NCBI RefSeq assembly: GCF_964355755.1
Contig: NC_092677.1
Location: 8,747,001 to 8,811,000 of the forward strand
Direction of reading: 5' to 3'
Source: Antedon mediterranea
Lineage: Eukaryota > Echinodermata > Crinoidea > Comatulida > Antedonidae
Length of the DNA stretch: 64,000 nt
Shown here: one piece after another, positions 21,516 through 64,000 of the stretch
Layout of the letters: each line of letters opens with the position of its first letter
How positions within the stretch are numbered: the stretch's first letter is position 1
Made by a program: the position numbers and the translations under genes
Notes under the pieces: generated by a model
The model's database searches: none
Seen by the model: only the letters and a program-made list of their open reading frames with translations
Told to the model about the DNA's origin: nothing

Positions 21516-24500
21516 ATGGTAAGTAGATGTTTTACACATAACATTAATTCTATATATAAGCTTTTTAACTCATGTATTGTGCTGAATTAGACGATTGCAG
21601 CCAGGCCTGCTGCTGCTGGATGATCTGCTCTCTCAGACATGTGATGTGCGAGTTGTTAAGGTTTCCGCCGATAGCCGAGGATAGCCTAGTAGGCCTAGGC
21701 TTGCATATAAACCTACTGATAGCTAATAACGTTGATCTTGAATAATACCAATTTGATGGATCATATTTAAACACCAAATTAGGCCTAGTCTAGGGCCTAG
21801 GCCTAGATATTATTATTGATTAGGCCTAGGCTAGGCTATATAGGCCTAGCCTAGGCCTAGGCTAGATATATTACACAATTTGTTTTATAAAAAAATAAAA
21901 TGTTTATTTTATTCCCTACCTAGCCCTAGGCTAGGCCTACCTTTAACTTTATTATTTCAGATTCAGTATTAACAGTATTATAAATTTTATTAAACAATCA
22001 TTCTTTATTCCAGTCTCGTAGTATGATAAGTTCCATAGGCTCCTCATCCAGTGCCGGATCAAGGCGAGCCAAAACCCGACAGTATTACACCGTCAGCAAA
22101 ACATCCAATGTTGACGAATCATTATTTGCAGCGAAACCGCAGCAAGCTCAAAGACAACGTAGTGCACCTGAACTCACATCTGATATTTTCTCAAATGGTT
22201 CGTCCAACAGAAGAACCAGACATTCAAATAATAAATCAAAGGAGGAGGTCCAGGTTATTACCAAAGATCTGATTAGAAAACTTATGTAAGTTTAAACACA
22301 AATTATTCCAAACCACATAAACATGTTCAGGCAGATCTAAGATTGTTTAAACTTAAATTTTGTTTCTACTGTTATAATTTGTTTCAGAGTACCAAAGGAA
22401 GATCCCTCAGGAAAATCGGTAATTCTTCCCCAAAATGAATTTTTTCGAATTCTTGGTAAATCGCATGTAATGACTGAAGAAGAAAGATATGCTGAATACA
22501 ATGCACGTAAAAGAGAAAAGCAGGACATTCTGGTAAGGATACCCATTTTTGTTTTTGTGTGAACCAATTTTTGGATTTCAGGTCAAGTCTTTTTTTTTTA
22601 TCCAATTTTTGATCAAAGTGAATAAATATTATCTGACATTGAAATGGCATATTCAACAAAGGGGGACAATATATCTTTAATGGAAATAAAATGCCATTTC
22701 TGTAAACCAACAGTTTCCATTGAAAACAAAAACTAATAACATTTTACATTATGAATCCAAAATGCAGTATACCCTGCATAACCTCCTTGCCTGTCCATAA
22801 AAATCTTGTATGAGGCTTAGCTAGTGACCATGTTTTGGCTGTTGAGTTGTTGATGTGTTCACTGTATTTTTACATTATGTTGTCAGGAGGCCAGTGCAGC
22901 TGTTAAGAATGAACTGCGAACATTAGACAAAAACAAAAAGAAGAATGAAAAACTCAACGAGCTGGAGGAAGAAGCACAAAAGCAGGCTGAGTATTTGCTG
23001 GAGAAAGCGAGGGAACAACGAGAGGAACAAGAAGATGACATAAAAAGATTAAATGAGGTTTGTGTTCTCTAAAAGATTTATTGAAAAACTCAGTTAGACT
23101 CTGACATATGATATGTTGATGTAGTAAAAACTATTAATTAACAATGAGAGTGTAGTTAACAGTAAGTAATTAGGCAAAACTTATGGGGCAATAAAACAAT
23201 TTTTTAAGAAAGACAGAAAAGAGGAAATAATGAAAAAATTAGAACATTTTCCGTACTTCATTATCATGTTAAAATATAATCAATAGATGAATGAAACAAC
23301 TATTATTGTTCTCATGGCTAGGGATGTTATTAGGTATAATGACTGAGTGATTGGTTGATATAATAATAATAATATTCTTTATAGCCGATAATTTATTGAA
23401 GCTTTAAATTAGAATTTTTCTTTCATTTTTGGAGCCAAAACAAATAATTATTTATTAGATTGTCGTTATTATCAGTTAATTAGACTTTACAAAATATCAT
23501 CTAAGAATTATCATCATTAAGCAGGACTATTATATTTCAATAGTTGATACTAAATGCTAAGTGTCATGCCATTCGAGATGCCCAGTTATTGGAGAAAGAT
23601 CAAATTAAAACAGAAATGGCTGAAGAAGAAAGAAGACTGGATGACATGATGGAAATGGAGAGACAGGATGCGCTGCTGCTGCAAGAAGAAATTGAAAACC
23701 AGAGGAAAATGGAAAAATATGAGTGAGTTGTTTGAAACAAAAGTTATTAACTGTTTAATACTAGCATGTCATTCAACGATAGCTACTTTCGTCAATGATG
23801 AATATTTTATTTTAGCTGACTTATGTGATTTTAGTATTTATTTTTTGTAAGCAAAGTTTCTTTTAATCTTAGCAAGCGCTTCTGTTACAGTAAATTAGTG
23901 TAATTTATTATATAAATCCAAAAAAAATGACAATGCTGTGGGTATCACAGACTGGATCTCAATGGAGATACAAAAAAGCGAAAAGCTAAATCAAAAAACG
24001 ATAAGTAAAACAGCCAGAAAAGTTAGAGCTTTCGAGCAACACTACACTAGCCCTTCTTCAGTACAAGTGTAATTTATTATATATAAATAAGTTGAACATA
24101 AAATATTGCACTTACTGTATATTGTTTGTTATGAACAAGGAAGTCCCATTCAAATTGTGTGTACTTACAATAAATAATACAAGACAAATTCCAAATCCTT
24201 AACTTAATACTCCAAAGATAATAATACATAGTGGGGGAGATGCAACAAATTACCATCTACTTGTTTATTAAATATACAATGAAAGTGGAAATTGAATTAG
24301 TTTGAAATAAACTGTACAGTGCTGTTTTAATGTGACATGGGTTGTTTATTATTATTTCTAAGAAAAGTTTGATTGATACTTTTACACTAATGCAATAACA
24401 AATGAAATTATTATGATTTATTTTACCAGAGGTGCAGCTAAAGTGTTGAAGCAAATTGCTAGCAGGGAAGAAGAGAGATTACTGGACCAAGAGAAAAAGG

Positions 24501-35260: not shown

Positions 35261-35734
35261 TTTTTTGCGCATGTTACCGCAAAATGGCATGGCGTATGCT
35301 ATCTCAATGCATAATTTAAACAGTCAATATTTGGCAATTTTCGATGTTTTTAACTTCTGAAAAAAAACCTGCAGAATCATATAATGTGGCTTTCGCATGT
35401 TACCTCAGTATATATTTTAAAACTGTTGATATTTAGCCATTAAAACAAACCCATACATTATTTCGAACCATTTGAAAAAATGAGATGTGCAGAATCAAAT
35501 AATGAATAATAAAACAAAGTCCCTAGCAAATATTAGTTTGTTCCCGTTTATTTCACCAATTAAAACAATTAAAAAACACCTTTAATAATGATGAAATAAC
35601 AAATTCAAAATGTTACTTATTTAAAAACAATTAGTATAGGCTTCATTATTTAAAAACTTCTAAAAATTGATTTTTATGTTGTAGATGTAACCACGGAGGA
35701 GCTAGGGTTTTAGAAGTAGTTCCACCGCACTGGA
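35261..35734. other. Non-coding gap
   Basis: AT-rich. The first part still carries weak traces of the satellite (GCGCAGAATCCCATAATATTTTTTGCGCATG). No gene seen. Confidence 0.45.
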
Positions 35735-35965
35735 CAAAAGGGCAAAAGTCGACCCTGGGCAAAAGTCGACCCTGGGCAAAACTTGACCCTGGGCAACAGT
35801 TGACCCTGGGAAAAAGTTGACCCTGGGCAAAAGTTGACCCTGGGCAAAAGTTGACCCTGTGCAAAAGTTTACCCAGGCAAAAGTTGACCCTGGGCAAAAG
35901 TTGACCCTGAGCAAAAGTTGACCCTGAGCAAAAGTTGACCCTGAGCAAAAGTTTACCCTGGGAAA
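35735..35965. repeat. 17-bp minisatellite, about 14 copies
   Basis: Tandem copies of GACCCTGGGCAAAAGTT with point variants (GAGC, GGGA, GTGC). Because 17 is not a multiple of three, the minus strand is open in more than one frame with a 17-residue protein period (LLPRVNFCPGSTFAQGQ); I do not consider this a gene. Confidence 0.92.
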
Positions 35966-36367
35966 AAGTACACCCAAAGCATTATCCCGCCATTGGAAGA
36001 GCCCACCCTTGTTTAGAAGAATATTTGTTGGTGTCATATGAGTGCAATAATACATTATTTGAAAAAGAGGAAAGTTGCTCAGTATGAATTTCTTGTTGTG
36101 ACTGCTCTTCGACTGTCGCATGGATGTATCAAATGTTTACCCAGGAAAATAATAAATACATATTGTGTTGAAGTTGGCAGGCTATCAATAGGGTAAAAGA
36201 GAGAGAATTTATGTCACAGAACTGAAAGCAAAAAAGGAGGAAAAGGAACATCACACCTATAACAGAAAGAATTAGGAAATAATCTCAAATTTTGCATCAA
36301 TATACTGTACTGTATATAGTTAATGAAATAGCTACAATTAATGAGTAGTTTCGCCAAGAATTGTGCT
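35966..36367. other. Non-coding gap
   Basis: Nothing recognised on either strand. Confidence 0.45.
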
Positions 36368-43800: not shown

Positions 43801-46800
43801 AACAAAAATATACCATTTAGTTATTTTTTCTTATATATTTTGATTTAATGAACATGAAGAGAACTAAAACGCACTGCTAATATTAACAGTGTACATAATG
43901 AGAGATATACAGTTTATGATGTTCTCCAATTAAAAATATTTAAATTAAGATAACAAAGCAATTTAATACATACTTAATTAAGTCATCATCAAGATTTTTT
44001 AACTTGTCAGCTTTTGCTTTTCCTTCTCTTTCGTAAAATGCTTGCTCACTTAACAGCTTCTTTTGGTGTTGATCAATAAGGTCTGCCTTCTCTTTAAGAT
44101 TTTTAGACAATTCCTAAAATAGAAAATGAGAAACAAATGAATATTGTTGTAAAAGGAGAATGAGGCACCATTTGATGGCAACTCAACACACAGATTTTTT
44201 ACATAAAATATGATAATACTACATGAAACAATAATCATTGAAAAGGCTTTCTTTACCATGCTTCAATGAATGAATGTTCTGTTGAGCACAGGAAAACCAG
44301 TTGATCATACAGATTCACATTTTGTTTTTTAAGGTCAATCAGGAAGTTACTTCATTAAAAAAAAAACCATGTCTATAATTTTTTTCTAAAATACAACTCA
44401 TCTTTACCTCATTTAGTAATTGAATTTTTTTATTTTCTTCTTTTAACCGAGAACTTTCTGAAACACTACTCTGCTTTAGGTGGGTATATTTTGTCAGGGA
44501 GTCTTTTAAACTTTCCTAAAAAATAATAAATAGTCATATAATAAATAACATACATATCTGTTTTCTTGCTCAATTCAGTAGTTTTGGCTTAGAAAGTAAC
44601 AATTATTTTGTTAGCCTTAAAGTTTAAGCATGTATTTGAGGATACAGCAGAACACCCACATTAAGGGGACACTACATCTTGTGAAATGAAAATGTGCAAT
44701 ATTTGTTTTAACGCCGCTGCCTATAACTCTGGAGGTATCTCAAATCTCAAATACAAAACTATATTAAAATTACCTGCAATTGATTATTCTTGGTCATACT
44801 TTCTAGAAGTTCCTGTTTGAACGGCTCATACGGTGTTGTAATCAGACACACATTCTTCGTCTTTGGTGTGCATTGTACAAACTTACTTTTCCTTTGAAAC
44901 TTCTTTTTCTCAATATCCATACAACGATTTTTAAATTTAATAAGACACTCAATCATCTTCCACCACAAACCATGTGGTATTTTTACGACATTCATTTTCT
45001 CAGAGTTGTCAAAATTTGGAAGATCAATTTTAAACCAGTCAAAATTCTCATTGAAAGAGTTAAATAATGCAGTAGCTTCAATTAAAATGTCTTCATTTAC
45101 TGGATCTTTCTCTTCTGGTACATTTTGATCCAAAGTTTTCTCTTGTGATGAATGTTCCTCTTTTGCTGGCAATGGCTCCTTTTTATCAGAAACACAAGGG
45201 TTATCAGATTTATTATTTTTTTCTTTTTCATAAGAAAATGGAGTTGGAGTGTTTAGACAGAAGCCTTTGACGATCTCTGGTGGTAGAACTGAATTTGAAT
45301 TGTTAGTTAGTTTGCCAGATGCATCTACTGATCCCATGGTCAAACCACCAGGAGATGCAGATCCTATACCAGAATCATTGACACTGGAAGTTGGTACTGG
45401 TGTTGGACCATTACTATCACTAACATTTAAACTTGAGGATTTTTGTTCTTTTGCATCGTCATCCTGAGAGGAACCAATACTAGATTCTTCCATAATATAT
45501 CTCTCCAGTTCCAACTCTTGTCCTAGAATGTCATCATCAATATATTCCTCATCTCCTGGAAATTTCTCTATGATTTTCTTACTGCTGCAGTCTTCTGCTT
45601 TACTCTCTTGACTTCCATCACTGTTTTTTAAACTATTTTCTTCTGTTGAGGTTTCTGTTGATTGTGATTCTTCATCATCTTGATCTACAGCACCGTTGTG
45701 GTCTGTCTCACTAGCTGTCGAATATCTATCCGACTGTTCTGATAGTTTCTCATCATCATCGTCATCATCATCATCATCCAGTTCATCTATCGTAATTTCA
45801 TCCACACCATCTACAGTATTGTAACTTTTATTCACCACTTTCTTTTTCAAACTCTCCATCTCAAGACTTAACAATGGTTGGAACTTATTTGGTGGAGGCT
45901 CTGGAGACTTGTGAATTCTGGCAGCTTCCATATCTGGATCGATTGGTTGGCCATGTTTTCTTGCGAGGATCTCTTTGCATCTGACAGCATGCTTTAATAG
46001 ACAGATGTGGTCCTCAAACATCGCAAATTTTAATGATTTTAGAAGGAATTGATGAAGGCCACCAGCTCCATCGACAATTACGTGAGCTTGCTCAGGAAAC
46101 GAGTTGAAATCATCTAGTAGTTTACTACTATTTATAGGAAGAGGTCCTTCTTTTTCCAAAACTGCATGAAAATAACTACAACAGAAGACGACAAAAAAGA
46201 CATAAATTTTTGTTAAAACGCTATTGTATTTAAAGATTATATTTTTTTTTTGTATTTTGTATTAATATTTGTCCTCAAGTGAGGAAATTCGGATTAGGCC
46301 CTCCACGGACCCACGGCAGCCAGCAGTGCAGCGCCTACCAGATTAGGCAATGAGAGTAAAGCATCTTGCCTAAGGATGCAATTAGTATGGTACAGATAAC
46401 CTCGAACCCATGCCTATCACATGCTAGTCCGATATTACCATTACACCATCACTCTCCAGTATATACAGCACCCGCCACGATTTCTAGACGGTCTCCCATC
46501 CAGAACGCAACCGGGCCCAATGTTGCTTAACTTCGGTGATCTGACGAGAACCGGTGTTTCAACGCAGTATGGCCGTATACGCAGTATGGCCGTATATATA
46601 TAGCCAGAACCCAATTTCTTTTAGGGATCTTGTCAACATTATTCTACTGCAGTAATTTTTTTGGGTAATCATACAGACCGTTTCAATGTTTATGTTGAAA
46701 TAAACAAACTACATGTTTCTACAGTAACATAATTTTTACACGAGTCTTATCACTACCATATTTGAAAACAATACATTTTTATGTTACATAAAGTTTGAGA

Positions 46801-63809: not shown

Positions 63810-63875
63810 CTATAAAAGAAAAATATTTTTAAAATGTGAATGCTAGATTCAAATATATATATAATATATATATAT

Positions 63876-63910
63876 CTGACGAGATCTAATAAGATCGAAA
63901 CAGTACTGTC
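63876..63910 (+). ncRNA. Hammerhead-ribozyme-like catalytic core
   Basis: CTGACGA (63876-63882) supplies the CUGANGA box. GATCT-AATA-AGATC (63883-63896) makes a perfect 5-bp stem II starting with the conserved G-C pair. GAA (63897-63899) follows, then ACAG-TA-CTGT (63900-63909), a 4-bp stem III closed by A-U, and C (63910) as the cleavage residue of a GTC triplet. All invariant core residues are present. Stem I is the weak point: the bases after the cleavage site (TGCAGATTGG) do not pair with the (AT)n just upstream; their complement lies downstream at 63967-63976 instead. Short-stem hammerheads are known in Penelope-like elements and retrozymes; that origin is inferred. Confidence 0.6.
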
Positions 63911-63933
63911 TGCAGATTGGTTATATATATATA

Positions 63934-63965
<32 letters not shown>

Positions 63966-63981
63966 ACCAATCTGCAGACAG
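63906..63981. repeat. Hairpin with (TA)n interior
   Basis: CTGTCTGCAGATTGGTTATA (63906-63925) is the exact inverse of TATAACCAATCTGCAGACAG (63962-63981), with alternating TA between. The left arm overlaps the 3' end of the hammerhead-like core. Confidence 0.9.
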
Positions 63982-64000
63982 ACAGTCTCGGTTGGGGCGA

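Follow-up and report, generated by a model that had tools for sequence, protein, structure and literature searches.

A 5'-truncated retrozyme with a hammerhead core, and the TA-associated insertion record of its family, in the crinoid Antedon mediterranea

INTRODUCTION

Penelope-like elements (PLEs) with hammerhead ribozymes in their pseudo-LTRs were reportedly described by Cervera and De la Pena in 2014. Metazoan non-LTR retrozymes, as portrayed in the accessible text of Cervera and de la Pena 2020 (PMC7229834), are small tandem units of low GC content with one type I hammerhead, which form multimers, are accompanied by PLEs and produce abundant circular RNAs, and the discussion of that paper puts PLEs forward as a strong helper candidate. 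A 2020 review (PMC7761336) describes, in the passages available, repeats without a conserved motif that would reveal the helper, yet favours PLEs/Terminons for this role.

Here, we analyse a locus at the right-hand end of a 64,000-nt stretch of A. mediterranea DNA (hereafter the window), in which an earlier note, made from the letters alone, had recognized a hammerhead core and suspected kinship with retrozymes or Penelope-like terminal repeats. The suspicion was right in kind, as the core is that of a 285-nt retrozyme family associated with a Penelope-like family that we call PLE-B. This family resembles the retrozymes of PMC7229834, as far as the accessible text describes them: its units are small, tandem and of low GC content (41% here), they have a single type I hammerhead, multimers occur, and PLEs are found alongside. 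Unlike those retrozymes as presented in that text, it displays a readable preference for TA targets, and its 3' end can be read as fixed, at 10-14 nt beyond the cleavage site. Our searches of the open-licence PMC literature, including the accessible portions of PMC7229834, PMC11167929 and PMC7761336, met no account of retrozymes inserted into TA microsatellites, and a pattern search of IMG/VR returned no relatives, near records possibly having been excluded. The family is of a known kind, and what is informative about it is its insertion record.

RESULTS

A hammerhead core without stem I

A descriptor comprising core, stem II, GAA, stem III and NUH was run over both strands of the window and matched at 63876 only; its stricter form gave no match in 100 first-order Markov shuffles and its loose form 0.16 matches per shuffle, on which grounds a chance origin was rejected. 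The core at 63876-63910 is a genuine hammerhead core. It reads CTGACGA GATCT AATA AGATC GAA ACAG TA CTGT C, and the core residues listed in the earlier note were all recovered there, both in the sequence itself and by the descriptor scan (Table 1). The stems named in that note are also present, with a correction to their lengths: the supposed 5-bp stem II consists of 4 bp and a closing U-A, and stem III can close just 3 bp in cis, because full pairing of ACAG-UA-CUGU would leave a 2-nt loop. The cleavage position, which we placed by applying consensus hammerhead numbering to the window sequence, presumably lies after C 63910.

A search with the Rfam hammerhead models, as the earlier note had proposed, did find a match, yet one below the gathering score: Hammerhead_HH9 matched the window site weakly at 20 bits (E 0.18; gathering 52), and no Rfam hammerhead reached gathering score in the window. 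The same model matched in all 10 family loci scanned, at 21.9-33.5 bits (best E 5e-5), with none of these 10 reaching the gathering score of 52. Matches to miRNA families at about 63895-63991 outscore HH9 there, yet are also sub-gathering; being mostly on both strands and lying on the TA hairpin, they were rejected. A pattern search with an overlong spacer missed the site and was uninformative (8 matches versus 4.46 expected).

The window copy has the conserved CUGANGA...GAA...NUH core of a type I hammerhead and is without the three helices around it. TGCAG follows the cleavage position, its CTGCA partner is absent, and (AT)n stands directly 5' of the core, leaving a stem I of 0 bp. The copy, set in (TA)n, is truncated at the first C of CTGACGA, and stem I is missing because the insertion was truncated at the core beside (AT)n, as is also the case in other family copies. 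The earlier note had considered a ribozyme disabled by microsatellite growth; the disabled look is borne out, and 5' truncation at the core, rather than growth of the microsatellite, accounts for it. The window copy is a cut-off, 5'-truncated and probably inactive retrozyme fragment, ordinary in itself, with a length of 45-49 nt depending on whether its last 4 nt belong to the TA tract.

Table 1. Coordinates of the features discussed, in positions of the window
Feature	Position	Strand	Remarks
PLE-B 3' region	23922..24069	-	diverged copy (87% identity)
(AT)n target microsatellite	63851..63875	+	flanks truncated 5' end; longer family copies have ...CCTGAGCTGCA here
5'-truncated retrozyme copy	63876..63924	+	unit 251-285 then 1-14; 97.96% identity over 49 nt
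Hammerhead core	63876..63910	+	CTGACGA, stem II, GAA, stem III, GTC
CTGACGA	63876-63882	+
Stem II	63883-63887/63892-63896		GATCT/AGATC; 4 bp and closing U-A
GAA	63897-63899
Stem III	63900-63903/63906-63909		ACAG/CTGT
C of GTC	63910		followed by TGCAGATTGG
Predicted cleavage position	63910..63911	+	after C 63910
TGCAGATTGG	63911..63920	+	3' strand of stem I (TGCAG) and element 3' end
TA tract	63921..63966		no strand; hairpin between inverted arms
Inverted 15-nt retrozyme tail	63967..63981	-	CTGTCTGCAGATTGG on minus strand
5'-truncated tRNA-derived SINE, start	63984..64000	+	after 2 nt AC

Elsewhere in the window, a 5S rRNA match on the minus strand (46460-46580; 68.7 bits, gathering 38) could represent a gene, a pseudogene or a 5S-derived repeat, and is adjoined by a TTC3-like winged-helix coding stretch (44759-46159, minus strand; PF24812). 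An ORF at 35702-36121 (minus strand) resembles the translation of a minisatellite, with a repeated VNFCPGSTFAQGQLL-like peptide, and is probably no gene.

A 285-nt retrozyme family

The genome searched comprises 354,431,138 bases in 18 contigs. It holds 83 exact occurrences of the 35-nt core (reversed control 0) and 66 exact occurrences of the core with both 5-bp stem I strands, CTGCA and TGCAG (control 0). With window positions 63850-64000 as query we obtained at least 91 matched pieces (40 of 280 candidates scored), and with the 285-nt unit at least 61 (40 of 316 candidates scored), from which 70 loci were read, 40 for the window query and 30 for the unit query. The matches listed with the window query include 39 core-bearing places besides the window's own, and for 29 of these the alignment begins at the first C of CTGACGA, because the window copy has (AT)n, not element, upstream.

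Longer copies continue with ...CATTTCGAAACCTGAGCTGCA directly before the core, and the CTGCA within it pairs with the TGCAG after the cleavage site. Family stem I is an ordinary local helix of 5 bp, tandem copies included, and in complete copies the hammerhead spans the unit junction with stem I CTGCA/TGCAG, stem II GATCT/AGATC and a minimal stem III. Retrozymes are recognized by a unit of 150-450 nt with one type I hammerhead and low GC content, and by tandem multimers in the genome. In this family, two cores lie 285 nt apart in locus L011, giving a unit of 285 nt with 41% GC, and 14 of 65 aligned stretches run over more than 1.05 turns. On the basis of small size, type I hammerhead, tandem multimers and low GC, we assign the family to the metazoan-type non-LTR retrozymes with a type I hammerhead and a unit that looks non-coding. 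A target-site duplication of the retrozyme would be hidden by TA targets.

Pairing potential for three helices, with stem I open, is present in the genomic family, as core and all pairs are kept in 42 of the 74 copies in the fetched loci, and the core with both stem I strands is exact at 66 places in the genome. The earlier note had looked to a family of genomic copies with compensating stem changes; the family exists (the 83 exact cores), and the 74 copies hold no two-sided (compensatory) change of a stem pair. Conservation of the ribozyme does not exceed that of the body, with 51 of 1970 bases differing (2.6%) versus 134 of 6643 (2.0%), and given this lack of excess conservation together with the lack of two-sided pair changes we do not claim selection on the ribozyme. 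In the minimum-energy folds of two complete copies stem II forms, but the core ACUG is paired to the stem III CAGU and no hammerhead junction appears; these folds are no better than those of shuffled sequences, 24 of 200 of which equal or surpass them. Such predicted folds count against a ready hammerhead fold and are not decisive.

Copy ends and TA flanks

We aligned 69 stretches in the 70 loci (42 from the window query and 27 more from the unit query) and dropped four unit-query rows that came from duplicated segments, leaving 65, with unit positions numbered from the cleavage site. The window query is biased towards the tail and TA; the unit query has no TA beyond the unit and no chosen end. 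The 3' ends fall at unit 10-14, that is, 10-14 nt past the cleavage site, in 59 of the 65 stretches (41 of 42 window-query and 18 of 23 unit-query stretches), and the six exceptional ends lie at 5, 7, 35, 186, 264 and 267. A TA-rich 3' flank follows 39 of 42 stretches found with the TA-bearing query and 11 of 23 found with the TA-free query, against a background of 0.48% of window 12-mers. Since 12 of the 23 TA-free-query stretches, including three of one array (L073), are without a TA-rich 3' flank, (TA)n is a preference at most.

Unit positions 11-14 are ATAT, where a TA primer could pair. Other TATA/ATAT sites stand at 35-37, 42 and 200-203 of the unit, and only one of the 65 stretches ends near any of them (at 35), from which we infer that TA content alone does not choose the end. 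The 5' starts vary, with 6 of 65 at unit 10-11 (one full turn) and 12 of 65 at 243-252, six of the latter at 250-252; the window copy starts at unit 251. Because copies run through the junction of unit positions 285 and 1, the cleavage junction was intact in their template, a circular or an uncleaved RNA; uncleaved multimers would leave the same ends as circles.

The SINE, PLE-B and fused insertions

The element to the right of the palindrome, a 5'-truncated tRNA-derived SINE, is separated from the TA tract by just the 15 nt of inverted retrozyme tail and AC; from 63984 it continues beyond the window to about L009:1110 and finishes in (TA)n. Across 40 loci we counted 16 places with its marker, one of them that of the window, and ARAGORN reports tRNA-Asp(atc) twice in L010. 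Like tRNA-derived SINEs it extends upstream into a tRNA in longer copies and is 5'-truncated to varied extents; set against them, its 3' end is often (TA)n, as in the retrozyme and PLE-B. Among fetched loci, 3' contexts are TA-rich in 22 of 39 SINE cases and in 24 of 34 distinct PLE-B cases, several rows counted as non-TA holding shorter TA runs or sitting inside arrays. L010 contains a further SINE copy whose truncation likewise falls at AGTCTCGG, here separated from TA by CC.

The tRNA-Asp-like SINE also forms head-to-tail arrays with short TA at the joints (L010:1233-2100, 364 nt apart, and L037:400-1000), and no hammerhead was seen by eye in the unit of the SINE array.

PLE-B, the third family, ends in ...GCCTTTGGAT(TA)n. 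In L066 and L085, ORFs that end in GIY-YIG precede its 3' region, and a 650-aa ORF in L096 matches RVT_1 at 37.4 bits (cut-off 29.6) and GIY-YIG at 22.5 bits, just under the cut-off of 22.6 (E 1.5e-4), placing reverse transcriptase and GIY-YIG in one ORF as in Penelope-like elements. The C-terminal part of PLE-B as query gave at least 150 matches (150 of 456 candidates scored), whereas a Pfam search for GIY-YIG, in which 150 of 355 candidates were scored, gave at least 7 places with E values of 0.001 or less, far below the 150 PLE-B matches. Other Penelope-like sequences are present (at least 94 matched pieces with the L081 protein); the L081 element itself was set aside as a partner, since its locus (3.2 kb) lacks a (TA)6 run.

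PLE-B is like hammerhead PLEs and the PAc element, as the latter is described in the accessible part of PMC11167929, in its RT and GIY-YIG, its preference for AT-rich targets and a hammerhead-like motif, and likewise an internal start of reverse transcription would leave a 'tail'. Unlike hammerhead PLEs, the retrozyme has a unit of only 285 nt, and the resemblance of the PLE-B motif, CTGATGAAGGGC..GCCCGAAAGCTC, to a hammerhead is one seen by eye only, Rfam giving no hammerhead match on PLE-B. In 15 of 32 PLE-B copies with the CACTGATGAAGGG core the PLE-B match stops at most 5 nt upstream of that core, which is also where the window retrozyme is cut; some of these loci had been selected by a query that begins at that place.

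PLE-B and the retrozyme, two unrelated families, are often cut at a CACTGA(T/C)GA core beside TA (L020, L037, L070/L088, L092, L094 and window position 63876), for which a reverse-transcriptase stop, labile CpA and TA microhomology are candidate causes. The PLE-B insertions of L086 and L089 are not in long TA tracts and probably have target-site duplications (ATTCGGAGAC and TTGTTATTATACAACTA).

Across 88 loci, some of them overlapping, junctions of at most 5 nt between different families occur in L015, L037, L046, L070 (=L088), L078, L085 and L092, of which those in L046 and L070, one of the two in L078 and perhaps that in L092 have TA/TAA where the elements meet and possibly represent nested insertions. 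In L037, PLE-B runs straight into unit position 238 of a retrozyme that has the orientation of PLE-B, and in L015 retrozyme and PLE-B stand head to head with their tails outward. Fusions of this kind would be expected from a single enzyme that jumps between templates and primes twice. The window junction of inverted retrozyme tail, AC and SINE is, judged by its arrangement, of the same kind, and the fusions suggest an enzyme common to retrozyme, SINE and PLE-B.

DISCUSSION

The (TA)n ends and the fusions among three families suggest that circular or uncleaved retrozyme RNA is copied by a target-primed mechanism of the Penelope type. We propose that retrozyme transcripts would cleave between GUC and UGCAG, as expected from the motif, and that the monomers would be ligated into circles, or that uncleaved multimers would persist. 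A putative Penelope-like RT/GIY-YIG endonuclease would open (TA)n, and a TA primer would anneal at the AUAU of unit positions 11-14, which is the end point displayed by the copies. Copying would proceed back through the ribozyme and often stop early, giving the varied 5' ends that we observed, and in the window copy it would have stopped at the first base of the core. A second event would have brought the inverted arm and the SINE into this TA tract: either two TA primers were extended on two RNAs (retrozyme and SINE) and the cDNAs fused, or the TA end snapped back, copied itself and then joined the SINE. Either course may have produced the palindrome; GGTTATATA, common to both its arms and in no other of the family copies compared, speaks for snap-back over two independent primings. 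As a whole, the locus is very probably best explained by a dead, truncated retrozyme insertion, PLE-type TA-primed copying, and a second event for arm and SINE.

The earlier note was correct that a complement lies downstream across the TA hairpin: CCAATCTGCAGACAG, at 63967-63981, is complementary to 63906-63920 and belongs to an inverted repeat (63906-63943/63944-63981) with 38-nt arms that are 97% complementary. It had suggested that this could be a displaced stem I that would form only between neighbouring copies of a circularly permuted or tandem-dimer element, and both the complement it called upon (CCAATCTGCA, 63967-63976) and tandem copies in the family do exist. Stem I in the family is nevertheless made locally, tandem copies included, from CTGCA before the core and TGCAG after the cleavage site; no CTGANGA core follows the complement, either in the window or within 3 kb downstream (L009, to 4001), where the note had suggested looking for a second one; and the predicted fold of 63844-64000 locks complement, TA tract and stem III strand in one long hairpin, not a hammerhead. 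Pairing between copies is thus highly improbable, and the downstream complement is, by its sequence and position, an inverted copy of the retrozyme 3' tail beside the SINE and no stem I in waiting. Could this arm be a retrozyme that inserted tail to tail in an event of its own, at a time that has nothing to do with the arrival of the SINE? Copies of retrozyme, SINE and PLE-B do stand tail-to-tail over TA spacers elsewhere (e.g., L027, L040 and L060), but in the window just 15 nt of retrozyme are present, with no TA before the SINE, and a T at the tail junction occurs in both arms and in no other compared copy, which makes separate insertion unlikely.

As for the TA-primed copying itself, PLE-B may be the helper on account of the shared targets and the fusions. 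In the joint reading, a Penelope-like RT/GIY-YIG would nick TA microsatellites, prime at the AUAU of religated, circular retrozyme RNA, copy one or more turns, and during the same reaction fuse retrozyme, SINE and Penelope cDNAs; we give this tentative scheme slightly less than an even chance, its weight being lowered by the 12 of 23 TA-free-query stretches without a TA-rich flank. Mobilization might instead be due to a LINE or to a Penelope-like family other than PLE-B, with TA targeting reflecting abundant open TA repeats. The genome does hold further Penelope-like sequences, and LINEs or PLEs are named as possible helpers in the accessible text of PMC7229834, but PLE-B and the retrozyme have a TTGGAT-TA end, TA targets and fused insertions in common, and we regard such another helper as a real, if lesser, possibility.

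One dominant end past the junction, a preferred target and RT/GIY-YIG fusions provide a defined RNA, a defined protein and a defined DNA target with which the question of the helper can be tested. If true, the joint reading of nicking, priming and fusing would identify the helper, the site of priming and the form of the template, which PMC7229834 and PMC7761336 leave open in their accessible text.
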